Positions 119 to 10,722 of a DNA stretch of 64,000 nucleotides are shown piece after piece (within the stretch, counting starts at the first letter, position 1; each line of letters begins with the position of its first letter). The DNA is from Nicoletella semolina. GTDB taxonomy: Bacteria; Pseudomonadota; Gammaproteobacteria; Enterobacterales; Pasteurellaceae. Below the pieces are notes generated by a model that made no database searches, was not told the DNA's origin, and was given only the letters and a program-made list of their open reading frames with translations. The translations under genes were made by a program, and so were the position numbers. The stretch is taken from assembly GCF_004345745.1 (NCBI RefSeq), contig NZ_SLXJ01000005.1, positions 1-64,000 of the forward strand, in the 5' to 3' direction.

Positions 119-3100
119 ATGAATAAAATCTTCAAAGTCATCTTCAACAAATCCACCCAAACTTGGACAGTGGTCTCTGAGCTTGCCAAATCTGCCACCA
201 AAGTCAAATCACAAAGCCTGGCTGCCCCAGTAGTATCTCAAACGACTGACACCCCAAGCCATCATCTAAGCAACTACGGCGAACTAACCATTATCAGCAT
301 CTTAGTACTCTCTAGCTTATATACTGGTATGGCGTGGGGAGGGCATAATACCCCAGGTAATGGTGGTACAGGGCACACTGTTGCATGGGGAGAGAGTAGC
401 TCCGCAAATGTAGGTGGTGCAGTCGCTTTGGGACACGCAGCTAAAGTAAAGGCTCTAGAGGGAATATCCATTGGCTATAACACAAATCTTACAAGTAAAT
501 ATTCTATTGCGATTGGTTCTGGAGCTAGTGCCACTGGTGGTGATAATTATGTAAGTTCTACTGCGATTGGCTATAAAGCACATGGAGGTGCAAAAGAGGG
601 CGTGGCTTTAGGAGCATATTCAAAAACAGATAGATTTTCACTAACTAGCGACAATGTGAGTACTAATAAGATTAATGTGCAGCCTAATACTCGAGTAAAT
701 AGTGTTTGGGGACCTCAAGGAGTTAATCACAATGATATTAAAGAGACTGTTCGGGAGACAAAGGGGGCAGTCTCAGTGGGGGATTCAACGGGTACTGCTC
801 CCAAATCTGCCACATTCACCCGCCAAATAATTAACGTGGCAGCAGGTTCTGCGGATTCTGATGCGGTAAACGTTGCTCAGCTACGGGCAGTGGCCGAATA
901 TGCCAAGAATCTTGCCAAGAATGTACAAGGTGGCTATGACATTACTGTGAAAGGGGATAATGGTCAAGGAGTACAAATTACCTCCCGTAATAAAACACTT
1001 AATTTGAACGGTAAAAAGGATAGCAATCACCAAAACATCATCGTTTCCAAAGCGAATAGTAGCAGTACACTTGAATTTGCACTAAATAAGGAGCTTAAAG
1101 GGGTAACCAATATCATCACTCAAAATCTGACTTCAACTGCCATGGCTACTTTTAATCAAGGGATAACCCTTGGTAACCAAGGGCCAAAGATTATAAAAGG
1201 CGATAACCAAGATACTATCAAAATAATGGGTACAGACGATCAAAGTGAAGTAAAAATCACCAACCTTAAGGCGGGTGAATCTGATAGCGATGCAGTGAAC
1301 TTTAAGCAACTAAAAGACAACAAAGTCAAGGTTGAAGCAAATGGTTTGGCAAAAGTGAGTTCAACAGATAATCAGATAGAGGGGGGCAAAACTTACACTA
1401 TAACTGTAGAAAAAGCCACTGTGCCAAATGATGACGATAACGACGGTAAGCTAAACGACAATGCTAATGACGATAATAAAGTCTTAAGTGCCAAAGGTGT
1501 GATTGATGCTATCAATAAAGCTGGTTTTAAGCTGCAAAACAATGGCACTGGCAATGGTGTAATCAATGCAGGCGATACGCTTAACTTTGAGAATGGTACT
1601 GGCACAACGGTGACAGTAACTACAGACAATGGTGGGGCGAAAGTTAAGGTGAATATCAATACAGCTGATATTACTATCACTGACGGCAAAGCTCAAGATC
1701 CACAAGCTCAAAACAATAGTGATAAATTGACCACTGTTAAAGCCGTTGCTAAAGCAATCAACGACATAGGCTTTAAAGTCAAATCGGAGGGCAATAAAAT
1801 CAATGGTGCTGATACGGTGGCTAGCCAATTGATAAAAAATGGCGAAGAGTTGGTATTTAAAGCGGGCGATAACCTAGAAATTGGTCGCCAAGATAAAACC
1901 TTTACGATTCAAACTAAGCGTAATGTAAGCTTTGACAGCATACAGCTGGGTAATGATGCCCCAAAAATCACTAAGGGTGATGACGGTAGCACTATTAAGC
2001 TCACAAGTGGTAACGGCAATCAAGATATAACGCTAACTGGTATCAAAGATGGCGTGAAGGATAGCGACGCAGTGAACTTTGGTCAATTGAAGAAAACCCT
2101 TACTGTGGGTGCAAACCTGAAGTTTGGTGGTGATATAGGTAATGACATTACTCGTATTCATAGCCAAAAGCTGACTGTCTCTGGTGGTGAGAAAATTGCA
2201 GGTAACTTAACCGAGAATAATATCGGTGTGGTGAGTGATGGTACTGACAAACTAGTGGTCAAGTTAGCCAAAAATATTGTCATGGGTACAGGTTCAATCA
2301 AATTTACCCCTGATAAGGCAGAGCAAGGGCAAGATGTTATTTTAAAGAGTACGGGCTTGCAGATCATTCCTGCTGATGCAATTGTGAAAAAAATGACTGG
2401 TAATGAGATAGATCTCAATAAAGCTATCGAAATCAACCAAGACGGTATTAATGCTGGCTCCAAGGTCATCAAAAATATTGCATCTGGTACAGATGACAAC
2501 CACGCAGCGACGGTTGGACAGTTGAGAGCAAGCCGTACAGTGATTGAAAAAGGTACGAACATCGTTAGCGTAGATGTGCAAGATAATGGTGATAAGAAAA
2601 CCTACACTATTAATGCGAAGGGTGCGAAAGTCTTTGCTAGAAACGGCTTGGAAGTACAAAGCACTGATGGCGCTGATAATGTAACCAATTATACCGTTGG
2701 TTTAACAAAAGACATACAAGATAAAATCCAAAAAGGCGTAGATTTCAAAAATAAAGTAGATACTCAAGGTATTACTTTTAAAGGCAATGACAATGGTGCT
2801 GGCGTAACCAAAAAATTAGGCGAAATGCTTAATATTGTTGGTGCGGCTGACAATAATAACGGCAACCACCAAAACATCACTACAGCTGCTGTGAGTAACG
2901 ATTTCACACTTACCCTCAATTCGGTATTAAAAGGCATTACTAGCATTACAGGTTTGATGCCAAATCTGACCGCTCATGGTGCAACTGGCAACACCAAGCC
3001 ACAGCAACTTGACGAAACGAAAGCGGCTAGCGTGGGAGATGTGCTAAATGCAGGCTGGAATTTGGCTCATAAAGATGGCAATAACGAAAGTGCTAAAGAT

Positions 3101-6100
3101 TTTGTAAAGCCTTATGATACTGTTGTGTTTGAAAATGGTAATGCAACGACAGTTAGCATTGTTAGTTCTGATAACAGCCAGAAAAATACCATCAAAGTTG
3201 ATGTTAATACTGATAACACGACGATTACCATTGATGCAAATAGCGGCAATAGGTTAAAAGCAGTTACAGGGACAATCAATGAAGGTGCTGCGAACACTAA
3301 TGATGAAGGCAAAGCGGTTGTCAATAATGGTGATGCTAACAAACTGACTACTGTTCAAACTGTAGTAGAGGCCATTAATAAAGTAGGCTTTAAAGTCAAA
3401 TCTGCAGGTAACAAAATTCAAGGCAGAGATATGGCTACAAGCGAGCTTGTTAAAAGAGGAGATGAGCTGATCTTTGAAGCTGGCGACAATTTAGAAATTG
3501 GTCGCCAAGATAAGACGTTTAAAGTTCAAACTAAGCGTGATGTAAACTTTAATAGCGTAGAAGCAAGCCAGTCTATCAGCGTTAGTAGCAATGCTGGCTC
3601 AAAAGTAAATATTACAGGTACTAGCGTTGTTGGTCTAAAATTCATCTTTGCTGACGCAGCAGGTCAAAATATTACCAATGCTCCGTTTATAGACGGATTG
3701 AATGGCAGCTTACGTGTCGGGTCTGGTAATGCCAATACCCCAGTGAAAATCACTAACCTTGCTCAAGGTATAGAGAACACTGATGCCGTCAATGTTGGAC
3801 AGCTCAAAAACTCAAGCTGGGAATTGAAGCACGAGGCAAGACAGCAAGATCATGATACAGCCTACGATGCAGCACATAAAAAAGATGATGTCAAAAAAGA
3901 CGACAGCATTACCTTTAAAGATGGTAAGGGTACTCGCTTTAAGATTAATGATGGTCAAAATACTACAGAGCTAACAGAAAACACTGTTCAGTTAGATATT
4001 GACGTGGACGATCAAACTGTTTGGGTAAACCAAGAAGGTAAGCTACAAGCAGCTTCTCCACAAACTCGTTATCAAGCCGATGGCGTTTGGGGAGCGACAG
4101 TCACTCGTGAAAATGGTCAGATCTTAAAAATTCAAGGTGGTGATACCATTATTGACCGTACTGCACCAGCACTAGGTACATATAAAAATATCACAACACA
4201 AGTTAAACAAACTGCTCCAAATGTAGATCAAGACACGATTGAAATCGTTTTAAACAAAGACGTGAAAATAGACAGTGTTGAGACCAAAACAGTCAATGCC
4301 AAAGAAAAGGTGAGTGTGGGAGAAAATAATAGCACGACAATTACTGGCAGTAGCGTTGTTTCTCCAAAAATTACTTTTGTGACAGGTAATAACCAAGCTG
4401 ATACACCTTCCATCACGGCAAATGGAGGTGATCTAAAAGTGAGCAAGGGCAACAATGGCGAAGCGGCTAAGATCACCAATGTGGCTGATGGTACAGCAGA
4501 CGACCACGCTGCGAATATAGCTCAGCTAAACAAAGCCAAAACTAAAGTGGTAGGTGCAGAGTTAGCCAAAGTTACTAAAGCTAATATCAATGGTGATCCG
4601 ACTAAAGGCACAACTTATACCGTAACTGTAGAAAAAGCCACTGTGCCAAATGCAACAGCTGATGGCAAGTTGGGAAATCCAGCCGATGGCGAAAAAGTGC
4701 TGACCGTTAGTGGCGTGGTAGAAGCTATCAATAAAGCTGGTTTTAAGCTGCAAAACAATGGCACTGGCAATGATGTAATCAATGCAGGCGATACGCTTAA
4801 CTTTGAGAATGGTACTGGCACAACGGTGACAGTAACTACAGACAATGGTGGTGCAAAAGTTAAGGTGGATATCAATAAAGCTGGCGTTACAACCATTAAT
4901 GGCATAGCACAGGTCGATCCTGCAAATCAAACTAATGGCGATCGTTTTGTTACTGTGGATACCGTTGTTAAAGCGTTAAATGACGCAGGATTTAAGATCA
5001 CTGCTGATAAAGAGGACTCGGGTATGCAGACTGGTACGAAAGAAGATAAGCTGATCAAAGCTGGCGAGAAAATTACTCTTAAAGCAGGCAAAAACCTCAC
5101 AGTTAAGCAATCTGGGGCAGATTTTACTTTCTCAATGCAAGATCAAGTTGAGGTTGATAAAGTGACAGTAGGTTCGGTTAGCATTGAAAAAACTGACGGC
5201 ATTAACGCGGGTCAAAAAGCTATTAGCAATGTTAAAGATGGTGTGAAAGACAGCGATGTGGTAAATGTGAAGCAGCTAAATGCAGCTAAGACGGAAGTCA
5301 AAGGTATGGGGCTTGCCACGGTGAGCAAATCACAAGGTGATAAAGGTCAGGATGTTTATATTGTCAATGTCAATGCCCAAGGTGTGGTAGGCACAGCTCA
5401 AACGTCTATGATGTATACTGATGGCTACGGTAATAAAGTGTATAAGCACACTGATGGCAAGTTCTACACCCAGCCAAATGGCGGTGGCGATGAAGTCGAT
5501 CCAGATCAAATCACTGCTACATTAAATAGTCCGAGTAAGGGTGGCACCAATACGCCAACCACGCTAAACAATGCGGCAGGTTCACTCGCACAAGCGGTCA
5601 ATATTGGCGATAAAATTGTAGGTTTAAATCAGCGTTTGGGCAACCGACTAGCCACTGATTTCACTCGCAACCAAGCTTTACCGCAACAGGTACAGAATAT
5701 CTACAACAATGTGGCAACTGTGGGTGATGTGCTAAACGCTGGCTGGAATCTACAAGGTAATGGTATTGCGGTAGACTTTGTTAAGTCATATGACACGGTA
5801 AACTTTATCAACGGCATGGGTACATCGGCTGTGGTGATAAATAGGGACGGTAAAACTTCAACGGTGAAAGTTGATGTTAATATGGACGACACTACGCTAA
5901 CTACCGAGAAATTTGTAGAAGATGGCATAGAGAAAACTCGATTAAAAGCCAACACGGGTGAGATAGAGAAAGTGACCGATAATACCAAGCCAGATCAATC
6001 TCTATCAAGGGGTAAAGTAGCAGCTAAAGTGGGCGATGAGAACAAGTTAGCAGCGGTTGGCACCGTCGTGCAAGCGGTCAATAGTGTTGGATTTATTGTA

Positions 6101-8551
6101 AAAGCCAATGATCAGCAAGATGGTCAGCTGATTAAATCTGGCGATATGCTAGGGCTTAAAGCGGGCAAAAATGTGAAAATTGAGCGTAATGGCGGCGATT
6201 TCACCATTAGCATTGATGATATGGCGTTTAATAATGTTCAGCTAGACAATGATCACACTGTACCCAAATTATCTAGCGATGGTAAGGGCAATGTCAAAGT
6301 GGGTGATAAAGATGGTAACCTTGTGAAAATCACCAATGTTAAAGATGGTGAGAACGACAGCGATGCGGCGACAGTGAAGCAGCTTAAAGCGGTTCAAGTC
6401 GCCTCAACCACTAAAGTAGCTGGCGACCAAGGCGTAACGGTTACCAAGAGGCAAAATGCAGATAGCAGCACCAGCTATGAAGTCGCAGCGAAGACCGATA
6501 ATGTTACTGTTGGCATTAACGAGAAAGGCGAGATTGCAGCCAAAACGGGTAACATGGTGGTAACTGGCGGCAAAGCAACGGGTAACCAAACCGATGGCGA
6601 TAAGCTGGCAACGGTAAACACTGTGGCAGAGGCACTTAACAACGCAGGCTTTATTGTCAAAGCTAATGGCAAAGATGGCACGCTGATCGAATTAGGCGAT
6701 GCGATTGAGTTTTTTGGTGGCGACAATATTATCATCAGCGAAAATGGCGGCAAAGTAACGGTTGAGATCAAAAAAGAGGTGGCGTTTGACAATGTCAAAG
6801 TCGGTGATGCAATGGTTAGCAAAGATGGTATCAATGCGGGCAATAAGCAAATTACCAATGTGGCTGATGGCGTAGCTGATACTGATGCGGTGAATATGAA
6901 GCAGCTTAAAGGTGCGAAGACCGAAGTTACAGCCTCAGGCTTGGCTATGGTAACCAATATAACGAGTTTAAGTGGTCAAAATGCCTACAATGTTGATGTG
7001 GCAAAAGCGGATAAACCAATCATTTCTGCTACTGGTAATGTGAGCCTCACAAGCCCTGACGATGCAGGCAAGGTCTTGACTGCAGGCGATGTGGTCGAGA
7101 CGGTGAGTAACAGTCATTTTAATATCAATGGCAAAGAGGCAAATGGGACGAATGTTACTAGCAAAGTAAAAGCAGGTAATACAGTTGAGTTTACAAATGG
7201 TCAAGGCACGACGGCAATTGTAGAGGTCGATCAAGTGGGTAAAATTGCTCTAAAGATTGACAGCCCATTAGCTTATATCAATACCAATAAAGCAGATAGT
7301 TCAACGCCAAGTGATAAGGTGAAACTAGTCGGTGAAAAAGGCTCTGATAACGCTGTGCAATTGCAAAATATCGCAAGTGCTGTTCATAGCGAGGTATCTA
7401 TTTTAGATGTGAGGCACCCAACCGATGCTGAACGTAATGCGATTGCAAAAGCCATTATACAAGCAGAAGAAGATGCTCTGTTGAATGCAGTAAATGTGGG
7501 TGATTTACAAGCTATCACTAATAATGTTATTGGTACTGATATTATCAAAACTTATGATGTGAAAGGCGGCGAAAAACGTGGTATGACGTTAACAGAAGCA
7601 ATCAACAATATGAATAAAGAGGGGATTCGTTTCTTCCACGTTAATGATGGTACTAATCCTGCGACTGGTTCAGACAAAAGTAATGAGGACTCAAGTGCAG
7701 CAGGGAAATATGCTACTGCTGTAGGTTTCCAATCAGAAGCAAATGGTAAAAATGCAGTTGCTGTCGGTAAGACTAATGTTGCCGAAGGTAATAATAGTGT
7801 CAGTATCGGTAGCGATAACCAAGTCTTGACTAAAAATTCAGGTGCATTAGGTAGCTTAAACCGTGTTGAAGTGCTAGATCAAGGTGATGAGCTAACAGGT
7901 AGCTATGCTGTTGGTAATAATAATGTGATTAATTCAAGTAATACATTTGTATTGGGTAGTGGCGTTAAAAATACCATTGAAAACTCTGTGTATTTGGGTA
8001 ACCAAACACAGGTTACAGCAGGTAACCAAGAAGGAACTCGCCATCTTAGCTTAGCGGGTAAACAAGGTGATACAACAACGGCTGGCGATAAAGGCGTTAT
8101 TTTAAGAACGACGATTGGTGGTATTACCTATGGAGATTTTGCTGGTGCAAAAGCGAATGGTGCGGTATCAGTCGGTTCTACTGGTAATGAACGCCGTATT
8201 CAAAACGTAGCTGCAGGTGAGATTTCTCCAACATCAACTGATGCTGTCAATGGTAGCCAATTACATAGCCTAGGTAGAGCAATTGCTGGATTAAATACTC
8301 GTATTAATGAAGTGGATAACGATGCAAATGCAGGTATCGCTTCAGCAATGGCGACTGGTGGATTAGCACAGGCTTATTTACCAAGTAAAAGTATGATTGC
8401 GATTGGCGGAAGTACCTACAGAGGCAGACAAGCTTATGCAATCGGTATCTCAGCAATCAGTGATGGCGGCGATTGGATCTTAAAAGGTTCTATAAATAGC
8501 AATAGCCGTGGACACGTCGGTGCAACAATGAGTGCTGGGTTCCAATGGTAG
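119..8551 (+). CDS. Giant trimeric autotransporter adhesin (YadA/Hia class)
   Basis: A type Vc adhesin of about 2810 residues that should form a trimeric surface fibre binding host or bacterial partners. I start at ATG 119 because GGAGG lies 5 bases upstream; a TTG at 107 is less likely. Residues 1-25 look like an extended signal-peptide region (MNKIFKVIFNKS), with a hydrophobic segment near 55-72. A first YadA-type head (repeats such as AVALG, AIGSG) follows at about 100-180. The stalk then has about ten neck motifs of the form DAVNxxQL, and two GDVLNAGWNL Trp-ring-like motifs. A second head-like repeat block lies at about 2525-2660. The last 75 residues are the beta-barrel anchor ending in FQW. 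Near-identical stalk segments recur within the gene. Its ligand cannot be predicted from the sequence. Confidence 0.95.
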   Translation: MNKIFKVIFNKSTQTWTVVSELAKSATKVKSQSLAAPVVSQTTDTPSHHLSNYGELTIISILVLSSLYTGMAWGGHNTPGNGGTGHTVAWGESSSANVGGAVALGHAAKVKALEGISIGYNTNLTSKYSIAIGSGASATGGDNYVSSTAIGYKAHGGAKEGVALGAYSKTDRFSLTSDNVSTNKINVQPNTRVNSVWGPQGVNHNDIKETVRETKGAVSVGDSTGTAPKSATFTRQIINVAAGSADSDAVNVAQLRAVAEYAKNLAKNVQGGYDITVKGDNGQGVQITSRNKTLNLNGKKDSNHQNIIVSKANSSSTLEFALNKELKGVTNIITQNLTSTAMATFNQGITLGNQGPKIIKGDNQDTIKIMGTDDQSEVKITNLKAGESDSDAVNFKQLKDNKVKVEANGLAKVSSTDNQIEGGKTYTITVEKATVPNDDDNDGKLNDNANDDNKVLSAKGVIDAINKAGFKLQNNGTGNGVINAGDTLNFENGTGTTVTVTTDNGGAKVKVNINTADITITDGKAQDPQAQNNSDKLTTVKAVAKAINDIGFKVKSEGNKINGADTVASQLIKNGEELVFKAGDNLEIGRQDKTFTIQTKRNVSFDSIQLGNDAPKITKGDDGSTIKLTSGNGNQDITLTGIKDGVKDSDAVNFGQLKKTLTVGANLKFGGDIGNDITRIHSQKLTVSGGEKIAGNLTENNIGVVSDGTDKLVVKLAKNIVMGTGSIKFTPDKAEQGQDVILKSTGLQIIPADAIVKKMTGNEIDLNKAIEINQDGINAGSKVIKNIASGTDDNHAATVGQLRASRTVIEKGTNIVSVDVQDNGDKKTYTINAKGAKVFARNGLEVQSTDGADNVTNYTVGLTKDIQDKIQKGVDFKNKVDTQGITFKGNDNGAGVTKKLGEMLNIVGAADNNNGNHQNITTAAVSNDFTLTLNSVLKGITSITGLMPNLTAHGATGNTKPQQLDETKAASVGDVLNAGWNLAHKDGNNESAKDFVKPYDTVVFENGNATTVSIVSSDNSQKNTIKVDVNTDNTTITIDANSGNRLKAVTGTINEGAANTNDEGKAVVNNGDANKLTTVQTVVEAINKVGFKVKSAGNKIQGRDMATSELVKRGDELIFEAGDNLEIGRQDKTFKVQTKRDVNFNSVEASQSISVSSNAGSKVNITGTSVVGLKFIFADAAGQNITNAPFIDGLNGSLRVGSGNANTPVKITNLAQGIENTDAVNVGQLKNSSWELKHEARQQDHDTAYDAAHKKDDVKKDDSITFKDGKGTRFKINDGQNTTELTENTVQLDIDVDDQTVWVNQEGKLQAASPQTRYQADGVWGATVTRENGQILKIQGGDTIIDRTAPALGTYKNITTQVKQTAPNVDQDTIEIVLNKDVKIDSVETKTVNAKEKVSVGENNSTTITGSSVVSPKITFVTGNNQADTPSITANGGDLKVSKGNNGEAAKITNVADGTADDHAANIAQLNKAKTKVVGAELAKVTKANINGDPTKGTTYTVTVEKATVPNATADGKLGNPADGEKVLTVSGVVEAINKAGFKLQNNGTGNDVINAGDTLNFENGTGTTVTVTTDNGGAKVKVDINKAGVTTINGIAQVDPANQTNGDRFVTVDTVVKALNDAGFKITADKEDSGMQTGTKEDKLIKAGEKITLKAGKNLTVKQSGADFTFSMQDQVEVDKVTVGSVSIEKTDGINAGQKAISNVKDGVKDSDVVNVKQLNAAKTEVKGMGLATVSKSQGDKGQDVYIVNVNAQGVVGTAQTSMMYTDGYGNKVYKHTDGKFYTQPNGGGDEVDPDQITATLNSPSKGGTNTPTTLNNAAGSLAQAVNIGDKIVGLNQRLGNRLATDFTRNQALPQQVQNIYNNVATVGDVLNAGWNLQGNGIAVDFVKSYDTVNFINGMGTSAVVINRDGKTSTVKVDVNMDDTTLTTEKFVEDGIEKTRLKANTGEIEKVTDNTKPDQSLSRGKVAAKVGDENKLAAVGTVVQAVNSVGFIVKANDQQDGQLIKSGDMLGLKAGKNVKIERNGGDFTISIDDMAFNNVQLDNDHTVPKLSSDGKGNVKVGDKDGNLVKITNVKDGENDSDAATVKQLKAVQVASTTKVAGDQGVTVTKRQNADSSTSYEVAAKTDNVTVGINEKGEIAAKTGNMVVTGGKATGNQTDGDKLATVNTVAEALNNAGFIVKANGKDGTLIELGDAIEFFGGDNIIISENGGKVTVEIKKEVAFDNVKVGDAMVSKDGINAGNKQITNVADGVADTDAVNMKQLKGAKTEVTASGLAMVTNITSLSGQNAYNVDVAKADKPIISATGNVSLTSPDDAGKVLTAGDVVETVSNSHFNINGKEANGTNVTSKVKAGNTVEFTNGQGTTAIVEVDQVGKIALKIDSPLAYINTNKADSSTPSDKVKLVGEKGSDNAVQLQNIASAVHSEVSILDVRHPTDAERNAIAKAIIQAEEDALLNAVNVGDLQAITNNVIGTDIIKTYDVKGGEKRGMTLTEAINNMNKEGIRFFHVNDGTNPATGSDKSNEDSSAAGKYATAVGFQSEANGKNAVAVGKTNVAEGNNSVSIGSDNQVLTKNSGALGSLNRVEVLDQGDELTGSYAVGNNNVINSSNTFVLGSGVKNTIENSVYLGNQTQVTAGNQEGTRHLSLAGKQGDTTTAGDKGVILRTTIGGITYGDFAGAKANGAVSVGSTGNERRIQNVAAGEISPTSTDAVNGSQLHSLGRAIAGLNTRINEVDNDANAGIASAMATGGLAQAYLPSKSMIAIGGSTYRGRQAYAIGISAISDGGDWILKGSINSNSRGHVGATMSAGFQW
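1508..1660 (+). repeat. Stalk repeat copy 1 within the adhesin gene
   Basis: This 153-base segment (starts GCTATCAATAAAGCTGG) recurs at 4724-4876 with only about four to five mismatches by eye. It encodes the stalk stretch beginning AINKAGFKLQNNG. Such near identity 3.2 kb apart implies recent duplication or gene conversion and is a possible recombination site for length variation. Confidence 0.85.
4724..4876 (+). repeat. Stalk repeat copy 2 within the adhesin gene
   Basis: This is the direct partner of the segment at 1508-1660, in the same orientation and reading frame. Differences include GGT to GAT in the middle and GGGGCG to GGTGCA near the end. Confidence 0.85.
5590..5598 (+). repeat. 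DNA uptake signal (ACAAGCGGT), inside adhesin gene
   Basis: This is a perfect copy of the A. pleuropneumoniae-type uptake signal core, followed by CA as in the longer consensus. A near match (GCAAGCGGT) lies at about 6070 in the same gene. These signals favour uptake of this DNA by competent relatives. Confidence 0.8.
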
Positions 8552-8570
8552 AAATGCTTTAGCGTGGTTT

Positions 8571-8608
8571 TCAGACAGGATTGTACGACAATGCTGTCTG
8601 CTATTTTT
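8571..8608 (+). terminator. Terminator or attenuator between adhesin and lipoprotein genes
   Basis: CAGACAG (8572-8578) pairs with CTGTCTG (8594-8600). Inside it ATTGT pairs with ACAAT around an ACG loop, with one G-G mismatch between the two helices. T5 follows at 8604-8608. It lies only 20 bases before the next start codon, so it probably ends most adhesin transcripts and lets a fraction read into the lipoprotein gene. Confidence 0.8.
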
Positions 8609-8628
8609 AATTTATGAGGTAAAATTAA

Positions 8629-9090
8629 ATGAAGTTAACAATGTTAGTCAGTGTTGTTGTTATTCTTGTGTTAGCAGGGTGTTCAGGTTCAACGATCAAA
8701 AGTGATGGCACGGTTACTGAACTTAGATGGCCAGATCTTTCTTCAGCTGCTTTTGATAAAAACAGAGGAACATTTCCTAACATAGAAAATTTATTAAATA
8801 TTCGCTCAGCAATGACAAAAGATCAGCTTTATAAGTTGATCGGCTATCCGCAATTTTATGAGGGATTCCATGTGCGAGAATGGAACTATTTATTCCATTT
8901 TAACACGCCAAGTCAAGGAACTGATGGAATTACTACTTGCCAATATAAGGTCGTATTTGATAATAAAGCTTATGCTCGCAGTTTCTTTTGGCGAGCTGTC
9001 GATCCTGTTGACGCTGTGTGTCCACCAAATAAAGATCCAGGGGCGATCATTCGTGAAATAAAACAAACTGAAGCACTTATTCGCCAGTAG
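8629..9090 (+). CDS. BamE/OmlA-like lipoprotein linked to the adhesin
   Basis: A 153-residue lipoprotein. The signal peptide ends in the lipobox LAGC with Cys18, and Ser at +2 predicts sorting to the outer membrane. The mature part resembles the SmpA/OmlA (BamE) fold: MTKDQLYKLIGYPQF followed by a REWNYLFHF strand matches the helix-GxP-WxY pattern of BamE. It is about the size of a single such domain and has no OmpA-type peptidoglycan-binding domain. GAGGT precedes the ATG. Position directly after a trimeric autotransporter recalls TpgA of Acinetobacter, a SmpA/OmlA-containing partner of the adhesin Ata. A role in folding, export or anchoring of the adhesin is inferred, not shown. It is probably not the housekeeping BamE. 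Confidence 0.75.
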   Translation: MKLTMLVSVVVILVLAGCSGSTIKSDGTVTELRWPDLSSAAFDKNRGTFPNIENLLNIRSAMTKDQLYKLIGYPQFYEGFHVREWNYLFHFNTPSQGTDGITTCQYKVVFDNKAYARSFFWRAVDPVDAVCPPNKDPGAIIREIKQTEALIRQ

Positions 9091-9130
9091 TTTAAATTGA
9101 TAGTTTATATTGTTATACTTAGGTTTAATA

Positions 9131-9559
9131 ATGAGAGTTTTTAAATTAGCCATCATATTTGTATTTGCCATATCGTCTGTAGAGGCGATTGCCTATGCAA
9201 AGATACAAAAGCACCATAAAAAGGTGATTGTAAACATTCGTACAGCAGAGCTTTGTTTTTCGGATACAGGCGATTGTCATAAAGTATTAATTGGAAAAAC
9301 TACGCCGAAAGGAACGTTTGATTTAACACTTTATGCAACTAAGCTCCCTGGTTATGGTGGTACAGTTTTAGGATTTAAACAGGAAGGAAATTTCCTATTT
9401 GCATTACATAGAGTTTGGACTCGTAAACCCTCAGAACGTCGTTTAGAACGAATCGTTTCTAATAAGGTCTCTGATCGGATAATGACGAATGGCTGTATTA
9501 ATGTTACTGATCCTATTTATGAGCGATTGCAAAACTACTTTGTGTTAGAAGTTATTTAA
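9131..9559 (+). CDS. Secreted YkuD-type L,D-transpeptidase-like protein
   Basis: A protein of 142 residues from ATG 9131; a TTG at 9110 would add seven residues ahead of the signal peptide. The N-terminus (RVFKLAIIFVFAISSVEA) looks like a signal peptide. The C-terminal part carries TNGCINV with Cys122, the position of the nucleophile in the YkuD L,D-transpeptidase family, and His93 upstream. The canonical signature is H-x14-17-[ST]-H-G-C; here 25 residues separate His93 from Thr119 and the His before GC is Asn. Family members cross-link peptidoglycan or attach proteins to it in the periplasm. It probably belongs to the adhesin module and could modify peptidoglycan around the adhesin; activity is uncertain given the divergent motif. 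Confidence 0.65.
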   Translation: MRVFKLAIIFVFAISSVEAIAYAKIQKHHKKVIVNIRTAELCFSDTGDCHKVLIGKTTPKGTFDLTLYATKLPGYGGTVLGFKQEGNFLFALHRVWTRKPSERRLERIVSNKVSDRIMTNGCINVTDPIYERLQNYFVLEVI

Positions 9560-9600
9560 GGTTTATTTATATTCATTTTTAAAAGTTGATGGTTTTGAAG

Positions 9601-9631
9601 CTGATTCCGATATTGTCGGAGTCAGTTTTTT
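9601..9631 (+). terminator. Rho-independent terminator after the YkuD-like gene
   Basis: CTGATTCCGA pairs with TCGGAGTCAG (one T-G wobble) around a TATTG loop, and six T follow at 9626-9631. It closes the adhesin, lipoprotein and YkuD-like unit and separates it from the acyltransferase gene. Confidence 0.9.
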
Positions 9632-9711
9632 ATATAAATAGATATTTTTTATTTTGAGTGTAATTGAGAGATAATAAAGATTTATTATTTGATTATAAAA
9701 AGGTTAATAGA

Positions 9712-10722
9712 ATGAAAAACAGAATATACTCCCTTGATTATTTAAGGGGTATTATGGCATTGACGATAATGGTTTATCATTTTTTGATATTTCAAGGGCT
9801 AAAGCCTGATGTAAGTGGCATTATTGAAAAATTTGCTATTTATGGCGTATCTATTTTTTATATTCTAAGTGGATTAACACTCTGTTTGATTTATAATCAG
9901 AAAGATTTTTCTTTATTTAGTTCTTGGTTAGTTTTTCTTAAGAAAAGAGCATTTAGAATTTTACCTTTATTTGCATTGGTAACGCTCATTGTTTTCTATA
10001 TGAATGGCGATTTTTCATACCAAGTTTGGATAACGTTAATATTAAATATAACAGGATTGTTTTCTATTTTAAACTATGATGGATATTTAGTAACAGGTGG
10101 CTGGTCTATTGGCAATGAGTTGTTTTTTTACATATTGTTTCCATTTTTTATTTTATTATCATCTAAATCTATTAGGCTATTTGGTGCTGTTTTAGCTATA
10201 TTGTTATTTATTTATAGCTATTTTGCTTACTTTATTATTTTTGATAATTTAAGTTTATCTCAAAATTGGTCTTATTATATTCACCCATTAAATCAGATTT
10301 TCCTCTTTGCAAGCGGTGTTTTTGCTGGATTTTTTTGCAAGAGTAGATCAGAAAATAGAAATCATATGTTTTTATATATAGGGATAATGATACTTTGGGT
10401 TTATTATCCTGTCTCAGGTGATTTCTCTGCGATTATTTCAGGTGAGCATCGATTATTATTGACAATATTATCTATTTTAACTGTCCTTGTCTTTTTTCAA
10501 TTCCCACTTCCATTGCCACGGTTTATACATCGTTTATTCCATACTTTAGGTGAAATAAGTTATGGTGTATATTTGTTACACCCTATTGTGTATCAGTTAT
10601 TGAATAGATTAAATGTATTTACATTAAATGAATTATTTTATATCTCAATTTTAGGGACGTTAGGCGTGAGTTATTTATCATATCACACACTTGAACGCTA
10701 TTTTATTAAATTAGCAAAATAA
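9712..10722 (+). CDS. Acyltransferase 3 family membrane protein
   Basis: A protein of 336 residues from ATG 9712, which has AAGG at good spacing; the TTG at 9664 lacks this and adds 16 charged residues. The start SLDYLRGIMALTIMVYHF is the hallmark N-terminus of acyltransferase-3 (OafA-like) proteins, with the histidine thought to be catalytic. About nine to ten hydrophobic segments follow, including HPLNQIFLFASG and GEISYGVYLLHP near the C-terminus. Such proteins transfer acetyl or other acyl groups to lipopolysaccharide, capsule or other envelope glycans. The gene is clearly more AT-rich than its neighbours, which suggests acquisition by transfer. The target glycan is unknown. It ends 5 bases before glnE and may be cotranscribed with it. 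Confidence 0.85.
   Translation: MKNRIYSLDYLRGIMALTIMVYHFLIFQGLKPDVSGIIEKFAIYGVSIFYILSGLTLCLIYNQKDFSLFSSWLVFLKKRAFRILPLFALVTLIVFYMNGDFSYQVWITLILNITGLFSILNYDGYLVTGGWSIGNELFFYILFPFFILLSSKSIRLFGAVLAILLFIYSYFAYFIIFDNLSLSQNWSYYIHPLNQIFLFASGVFAGFFCKSRSENRNHMFLYIGIMILWVYYPVSGDFSAIISGEHRLLLTILSILTVLVFFQFPLPLPRFIHRLFHTLGEISYGVYLLHPIVYQLLNRLNVFTLNELFYISILGTLGVSYLSYHTLERYFIKLAK

Follow-up and report, generated by a model that had tools for sequence, protein, structure and literature searches.

A trimeric autotransporter adhesin encoded with a tagged TpgA-like lipoprotein and a YkuD-fold protein: a probable two-part variant of peptidoglycan anchoring

A trimeric autotransporter adhesin (TAA) of Nicoletella semolina is encoded together with a short BamE-domain lipoprotein and a secreted YkuD-fold protein, and this triad is probably a variant of the TAA–TpgA anchoring system. 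A short C-terminal tag on the lipoprotein and the dedicated YkuD-fold protein are likely to act as a two-part attachment to the peptidoglycan, in place of the OmpA domain of TpgA. In this arrangement the adhesin barrel would be seated in the outer membrane, and the BamE domain of the lipoprotein would clamp its periplasmic face, as the N-terminal domain of TpgA (TpgA-N) does on AtaA. At the place where TpgA has its OmpA domain, the lipoprotein would continue into a flexible linker and the tag. The tag would be recognised by the YkuD-fold protein, which may connect the lipoprotein to the peptidoglycan and thereby serve the adhesin. The proposal follows from the interchange of tag and OmpA domain at one position, from the co-occurrence of tag and YkuD-like gene where the two are unlinked, and from the portability of the tag. 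A split TpgA, with a separate YkuD-fold protein replacing the OmpA domain, had been suggested in an earlier sequence-only reading of the locus, and the comparative evidence on co-occurrence and interchange argues for it.

The window, that is the whole 64-kb stretch of DNA analysed, carries the three genes in the same direction on the + strand, and open reading frames, domains and fold all agree with the order read previously (TAA, BamE-like lipoprotein, secreted YkuD-type protein). The adhesin gene (119..8551) encodes 2,810 residues with Pfam matches to ESPR at about 119-235 (4.8e-14), to YadA_stalk in nine stretches (4.4e-67), to YadA_head and, at the C-terminus, to YadA_anchor (8369-8548; 1e-14), the latter being also recovered by the genome profile search. 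The C-terminal YadA-type anchor and the coiled stalk assign the protein by Pfam to the type Vc TAA. Ten YadA-anchor matches were found in the source genome, several of which are cut at contig ends. The lipoprotein gene follows after 77 nt and the YkuD gene after a further 40 nt. No terminator between the three genes was listed by a simple terminator scan. An intrinsic terminator-like stem-loop followed by a T-run is visible on the + strand 3' of the third gene at about 9597-9629 (-19.9 kcal/mol), in line with the previous claim that the only terminator lies there. This stem-loop is absent from the list of the scan, probably because its stem can extend into the T-run. Beyond it, the region 9664-10722 encodes an acyltransferase-like multi-pass membrane protein and has a notably low G+C content (0.272 against 0.385 for the window).

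The second gene (8629..9090, + strand) encodes an outer-membrane lipoprotein of 153 residues with a lipobox ending in Cys18 and a BamE domain (Pfam, 6.8e-13). The nearest solved structure, both by sequence (4e-9) and by fold (E 1.3e-5), is 9vnj_B, which shows TpgA-N in complex with the barrel of AtaA. The protein thus resembles TpgA in its BamE/SmpA-like N-terminal domain, homologous to TpgA-N, and in the position of its gene directly downstream of a TAA. From the homology to 9vnj we infer that it binds the TAA barrel. Pfam gave no match to an OmpA domain in the 153 residues, the domain that a TpgA should have, while it detected one in a BamE+OmpA paralogue of the source genome (locus L002) and in the protein of locus L034. 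Nearly all relatives are 250-320 residues long. Against the NCBIfam TpgA model the lipoprotein scored 53 bits, far under the cut-off of 350 bits, because its OmpA half is missing. The paralogue is encoded on another contig, where its neighbours read as recJ and as a phosphatase of the Cof type and where no TAA adjoins it within the stretch examined; together with the lipoprotein of the window, it makes up the TpgA-type lipoproteins found in the source genome. A third architecture was observed in genome G019 (L033:4311-4742), where a TAA is followed by a BamE-only lipoprotein of 143 residues with neither tag nor OmpA domain nor YkuD neighbour, which suggests that some TAAs do without a link to the wall. 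According to published modelling, the anchor may gain strength from TpgA-N by itself (PMC13082670). Both points weigh against the proposed attachment.

The third gene (9131..9559, + strand) was predicted to encode a secreted protein of 142 residues. Its start is most plausibly the ATG at 9131, from which a clear signal peptide is read, rather than the TTG at 9110. When searched singly, the protein gave no significant match in Pfam or NCBIfam and nothing in the PDB. Pfam YkuD (PF03734) was matched by 28 of 31 aligned family members at E-values up to 1 (best 1.9e-6), the protein of the window itself remaining unmatched, and a PDB profile search with the family alignment A4 returned chance matches only. 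An AlphaFold2 model built on an alignment of loci from the window and from genomes (pLDDT 88) aligned to B. subtilis YkuD (1y7m) with a Z of 11.5 and an rmsd of 2.7 over 104 residues, and also to many L,D-transpeptidases. As the single-sequence searches had failed, the YkuD identity is visible only through family alignment and fold. His93 (9407-9409) and Cys122 are invariant in both family alignments (A3, A4), as are the Thr, Gly and Asn of the motif TNGCIN in which Cys122 is found (residues 119-124, 9485-9502). The motif fits the YkuD-family active-site motif (S/T)XGCh(R/N) (PMC10434034), and the His is located 25 residues before the motif Thr. The former guess of a 'YkuD-type' protein is right in fold, judged by the model against 1y7m and by the Pfam matches of the family. 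On this modelling, the third protein is of YkuD fold and L,D-transpeptidase-like, with a putative enzyme activity.

Whether the YkuD gene travels with the adhesin across Pasteurellaceae had been named as a check, and in the genomes searched it does not. A YkuD-like gene was absent from 198 other genomes of the same family and order, and within Pasteurellaceae it was found in one of 121 genomes, the source genome alone. A class-wide sample of 369 genomes yielded the source genome and three weak partial matches. The usual partner of a TAA in Pasteurellaceae is a full BamE+OmpA protein, and the canonical TpgA gene order occurs in several genera. The family survey ruled out the BamE-only lipoprotein with YkuD as a general arrangement of Pasteurellaceae.

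Protein searches located the YkuD-like protein in Neisseria gonorrhoeae (67% identity), and also in Stenotrophomonas and Xanthomonas phages. Scanning 84,980 species genomes gave 17 YkuD-like loci, 14 of them in Neisseria or Neisseriaceae. Each of the 14 has a BamE lipoprotein gene just upstream, which in N. iguanae is a remnant, and six of them also have a TAA anchor immediately upstream of the lipoprotein. In both records of N. gonorrhoeae examined (L051:5425-5940 and L062), the lipoprotein gene is frameshifted and the adjoining YkuD gene is intact; in other Neisseria species the lipoprotein gene is intact. For a closer comparison, 83 Neisseriaceae genomes were searched for YkuD-like genes, TAA anchors and TpgA-type lipoproteins, and the lipoprotein C-termini were typed. 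The YkuD-like gene was present in 37 genomes, and its neighbour was each time a BamE lipoprotein gene, in one case reduced to a remnant. The order TAA, BamE lipoprotein, YkuD was found in 16 of these, including N. elongata and N. dentiae, and in 20 of them no TAA gene adjoins the lipoprotein–YkuD pair. Physical linkage of the pair to a TAA is common and not obligatory. TAA anchors were detected in 75 of the 83 genomes, namely in 37/37 YkuD-positive and 38/46 YkuD-negative ones (Fisher p 0.008, uncorrected for kinship). A YkuD gene common in genomes lacking the adhesin, which had been named as evidence against a shared function, was therefore not encountered in Neisseriaceae, where every YkuD-positive genome carries a TAA.

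The origin of the triad in the window was considered as well, without pointing to one donor. For the YkuD protein the nearest sequences are those of Neisseria (64-67%), but for the BamE core they are OmpA-type lipoproteins from other Neisseriaceae (67%). The 64 kb contains no DNA uptake sequences, which would have hinted at a transfer from Neisseria.

The C-terminus of TpgA-type lipoproteins is formed either by an OmpA domain or by a short tag (IIRE[VI]...RIRQ). All intact neisserial lipoproteins adjoining YkuD display a usually Pro-rich linker and then a conserved tail, with [VI][VI]RE[VI] at a distance of about 14-16 residues from the C-terminus and mostly [RK][IV]R[QREK] at the terminus itself. 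The 37 distinct tails all have Arg at -2 and Ile or Val at -3, and 33 of them end in Gln. From tail alignments, the tag of the window was defined as AIIREIKQTEALIRQ (9043..9087, + strand). The tail of this lipoprotein reads IIREIKQTEALIRQ and is predicted to be disordered, with an AlphaFold pLDDT under 50 at residues 135-153. The tag ends in LIRQ with a Lys at -9, unlike the C-terminal Lys of an Lpp-type acceptor.

The distribution of the tag follows that of the YkuD-like gene. A tagged lipoprotein was found in 37/37 YkuD-positive genomes (36 called by regular expression and G574 by eye), against 0/26 YkuD-negative genomes having a TpgA-type lipoprotein, all 26 of which display the OmpA type only. 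Eight YkuD-positive genomes have both lipoprotein types. The concordance (Fisher p 3e-18) is inflated by kinship of the genomes and by linked genes, and part of it reflects the plain linkage of lipoprotein and YkuD genes. Twelve tagged lipoproteins are encoded at a distance from the YkuD gene; every one of them immediately follows a TAA and belongs to a YkuD-positive genome. A chance neighbourhood, with a YkuD gene functionally unrelated to adhesin or lipoprotein, would agree with its absence from other Pasteurellaceae and with the 20 neisserial pairs away from TAA genes. However, the same gene order in at least 16 Neisseriaceae and in the window, and the tag concordance with its twelve unlinked cases, make such a coincidence very improbable.

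In a tree of the BamE domain, tagged and OmpA forms are interleaved, with six changes of which at least four are forced by supported branches. A single clade of tagged forms was rejected (AU p 1.35e-7). In the independent pairs drawn on supported branches, YkuD accompanies the tag wherever the members of a pair differ; these contrasts number only four, so that a sign test cannot reach significance. The OmpA-type lipoprotein of the YkuD-negative genome G586 (L165) nests inside a tagged clade, which by sequence looks like a reversal, as if OmpA had been regained upon loss of YkuD.

Homologues outside Neisseriaceae were collected from two viral scans (about 60 loci), annotated phages and three other bacteria. 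At 43 loci from the phages and these bacteria, a partner gene ends just before the YkuD homologue. In large phages (L052, L053, L054, L057, L232-L298), the YkuD-like gene lies directly behind secreted tag-bearing proteins. The 43 partners form ten sequence families, and 40 have a hydrophobic N-terminus. Four of the partners were checked against Pfam without a match, and no likeness to BamE lipoproteins was recognised by eye. The partners end approximately in PxK[KR]Ix[EQ], with Lys at -5 in 34/43, Ile at -3 in 24/43 and Glu or Gln at -1 in 36/43. A loose expression, [KR].{0,2}[IK][RGSKH][QE]$, which was composed after the tails had been seen, matched 29/43 partners and 10/417 other ORFs. These ten comprise seven neisserial lipoproteins that had not been removed, one likely true partner (L270) and two chance matches, giving a corrected rate of 2 in about 409 true controls. 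The stricter [KR].?IR[QE]$, derived from the neisserial tail, matched 9/43 partners and no controls other than those neisserial lipoproteins. Counted by partner family, the strict expression was found in 2/10 and the loose one in 6/10. Phage tails such as VVIEVPAKRIRQ are strikingly close to the neisserial VIIREIVPAKPKRIRQ.

How the tag and the YkuD-fold protein might attach the lipoprotein can be considered from these features. A covalent pin as in Lpp, made by an active L,D-transpeptidase joining a Lys of the tag to peptidoglycan diaminopimelate, is a serious possibility short of a favoured one. TNGCIN matches the active-site motif, His and Cys are invariant, and Lys occurs at -5 in most phage tags and after the last Cys in 45/48 neisserial tails; L,D-transpeptidases use a C-terminal Lys to attach Lpp and OutB (PMC12274547). 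On the other hand, the position of the neisserial Lys is not conserved, the tails of three genomes lack a Lys after the last Cys, and gonococci and meningococci are reported to have no proteins covalently bound to the wall (PMC6365954). The best-conserved residues of the tag (Arg at -2, Ile or Val at -3 and RE[VI]) are other than lysine. This would suit a YkuD protein acting as an adaptor that binds tag and peptidoglycan without catalysis, as would the fact that the OmpA domains being replaced bind peptidoglycan non-covalently. Invariant catalytic His and Cys would be unexpected in such an adaptor, and we regard it as possible but less likely than not. An intact active-site motif and the Lys present in most tags put covalent attachment slightly ahead of non-covalent tethering.

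A role without any tether can be envisaged too. A hydrolase, carboxypeptidase or cross-linking enzyme of the YkuD family would then be brought by the tag to the insertion sites of the adhesin or of another client and would remodel the wall locally. YkuD-family proteins make 3-3 cross-links and release lipoproteins (PMC10434034), and Pgp2 is described as a carboxypeptidase (PMC3961634). Such remodelling leaves unexplained why the tag alternates at the same place with OmpA, a wall-binding domain, and is considered improbable.

Beyond the two-part attachment of the TAA lipoprotein, the occurrence of related tags in phage loci raises a wider proposal, put forward tentatively and judged slightly less likely than not. 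A YkuD-fold enzyme and its cognate tag (about PxK[KR]Ix[EQ] or IREV...RIRQ) might form a portable system fixing outer-envelope proteins to peptidoglycan, with a logic comparable to sortases or to the Lpp box. Its clients would come from no fewer than seven unrelated families of secreted proteins, in bacteria as well as in large phages, and the TAA lipoproteins would be one class of them, swapping the tag for OmpA. Following a simple hydrophobicity rule, a signal peptide is absent in 71/75 homologues from phages and the three other bacteria, while the neisserial proteins and that of the window have one. The phage homologues, being mostly without a signal peptide, fit poorly with a periplasmic attachment enzyme, a point against the two-part attachment.

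The L,D-transpeptidase LdtNme of N. meningitidis presumably belongs to the same family as the YkuD-like protein of the window. It is the single L,D-transpeptidase counted in that species (PMC10434034). The Neisseria pathogens are described as having neither Lpp, nor Lpp-linking L,D-transpeptidases, nor covalent wall proteins (PMC6365954). The present analysis suggests a likely role for the YkuD-like protein in this genus. It also suggests that a short tag and a separate protein can stand in for the wall-binding half of TpgA, and that the tag may be a C-terminal targeting signal, which is directly testable. Our literature search found nothing linking YkuD with TAAs or describing the tag; two works on TAA auxiliary proteins (Yoshimoto 2025 and the preprint Dorison 2026) may hold an earlier description. 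Pairs resembling TAA–TpgA are reported in Neisseria and other genera in work cited by PMC13082670.

Among known systems, AtaA–TpgA of Acinetobacter sp. Tol 5 is similar in the order of a TAA and its partner gene and in the BamE-like N-terminal domain akin to 9vnj_B. It differs in that the triad lacks an OmpA domain and has, in its stead, a short tag at the C-terminus of the lipoprotein and a YkuD-fold protein from a gene of its own. SadB of Salmonella is likewise a lipoprotein whose gene works with a TAA, SadA; compared by description, SadB is reported to be trimeric, MATH-like and located at the inner membrane (PMC3953254, PMC8151025), whereas the lipoprotein here has a BamE fold. Relative to the YkuD family (PF03734), the third protein shares the fold, the His and Cys and the TxGC[IV]N motif, but it represents a small divergent branch near the detection limit of Pfam that is tied to a tagged partner gene. 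The attachment of Lpp (YbiS, ErfK, YcfS) and of OutB (Ldt03, Ldt84) resembles the triad in its YkuD-fold protein, intact motif and basic C-terminal tag of the client. In contrast, the tag of the triad ends in IRQ or similar and not in Lys, the two genes form a dedicated pair, and the client of this putative attachment is the partner of an adhesin.
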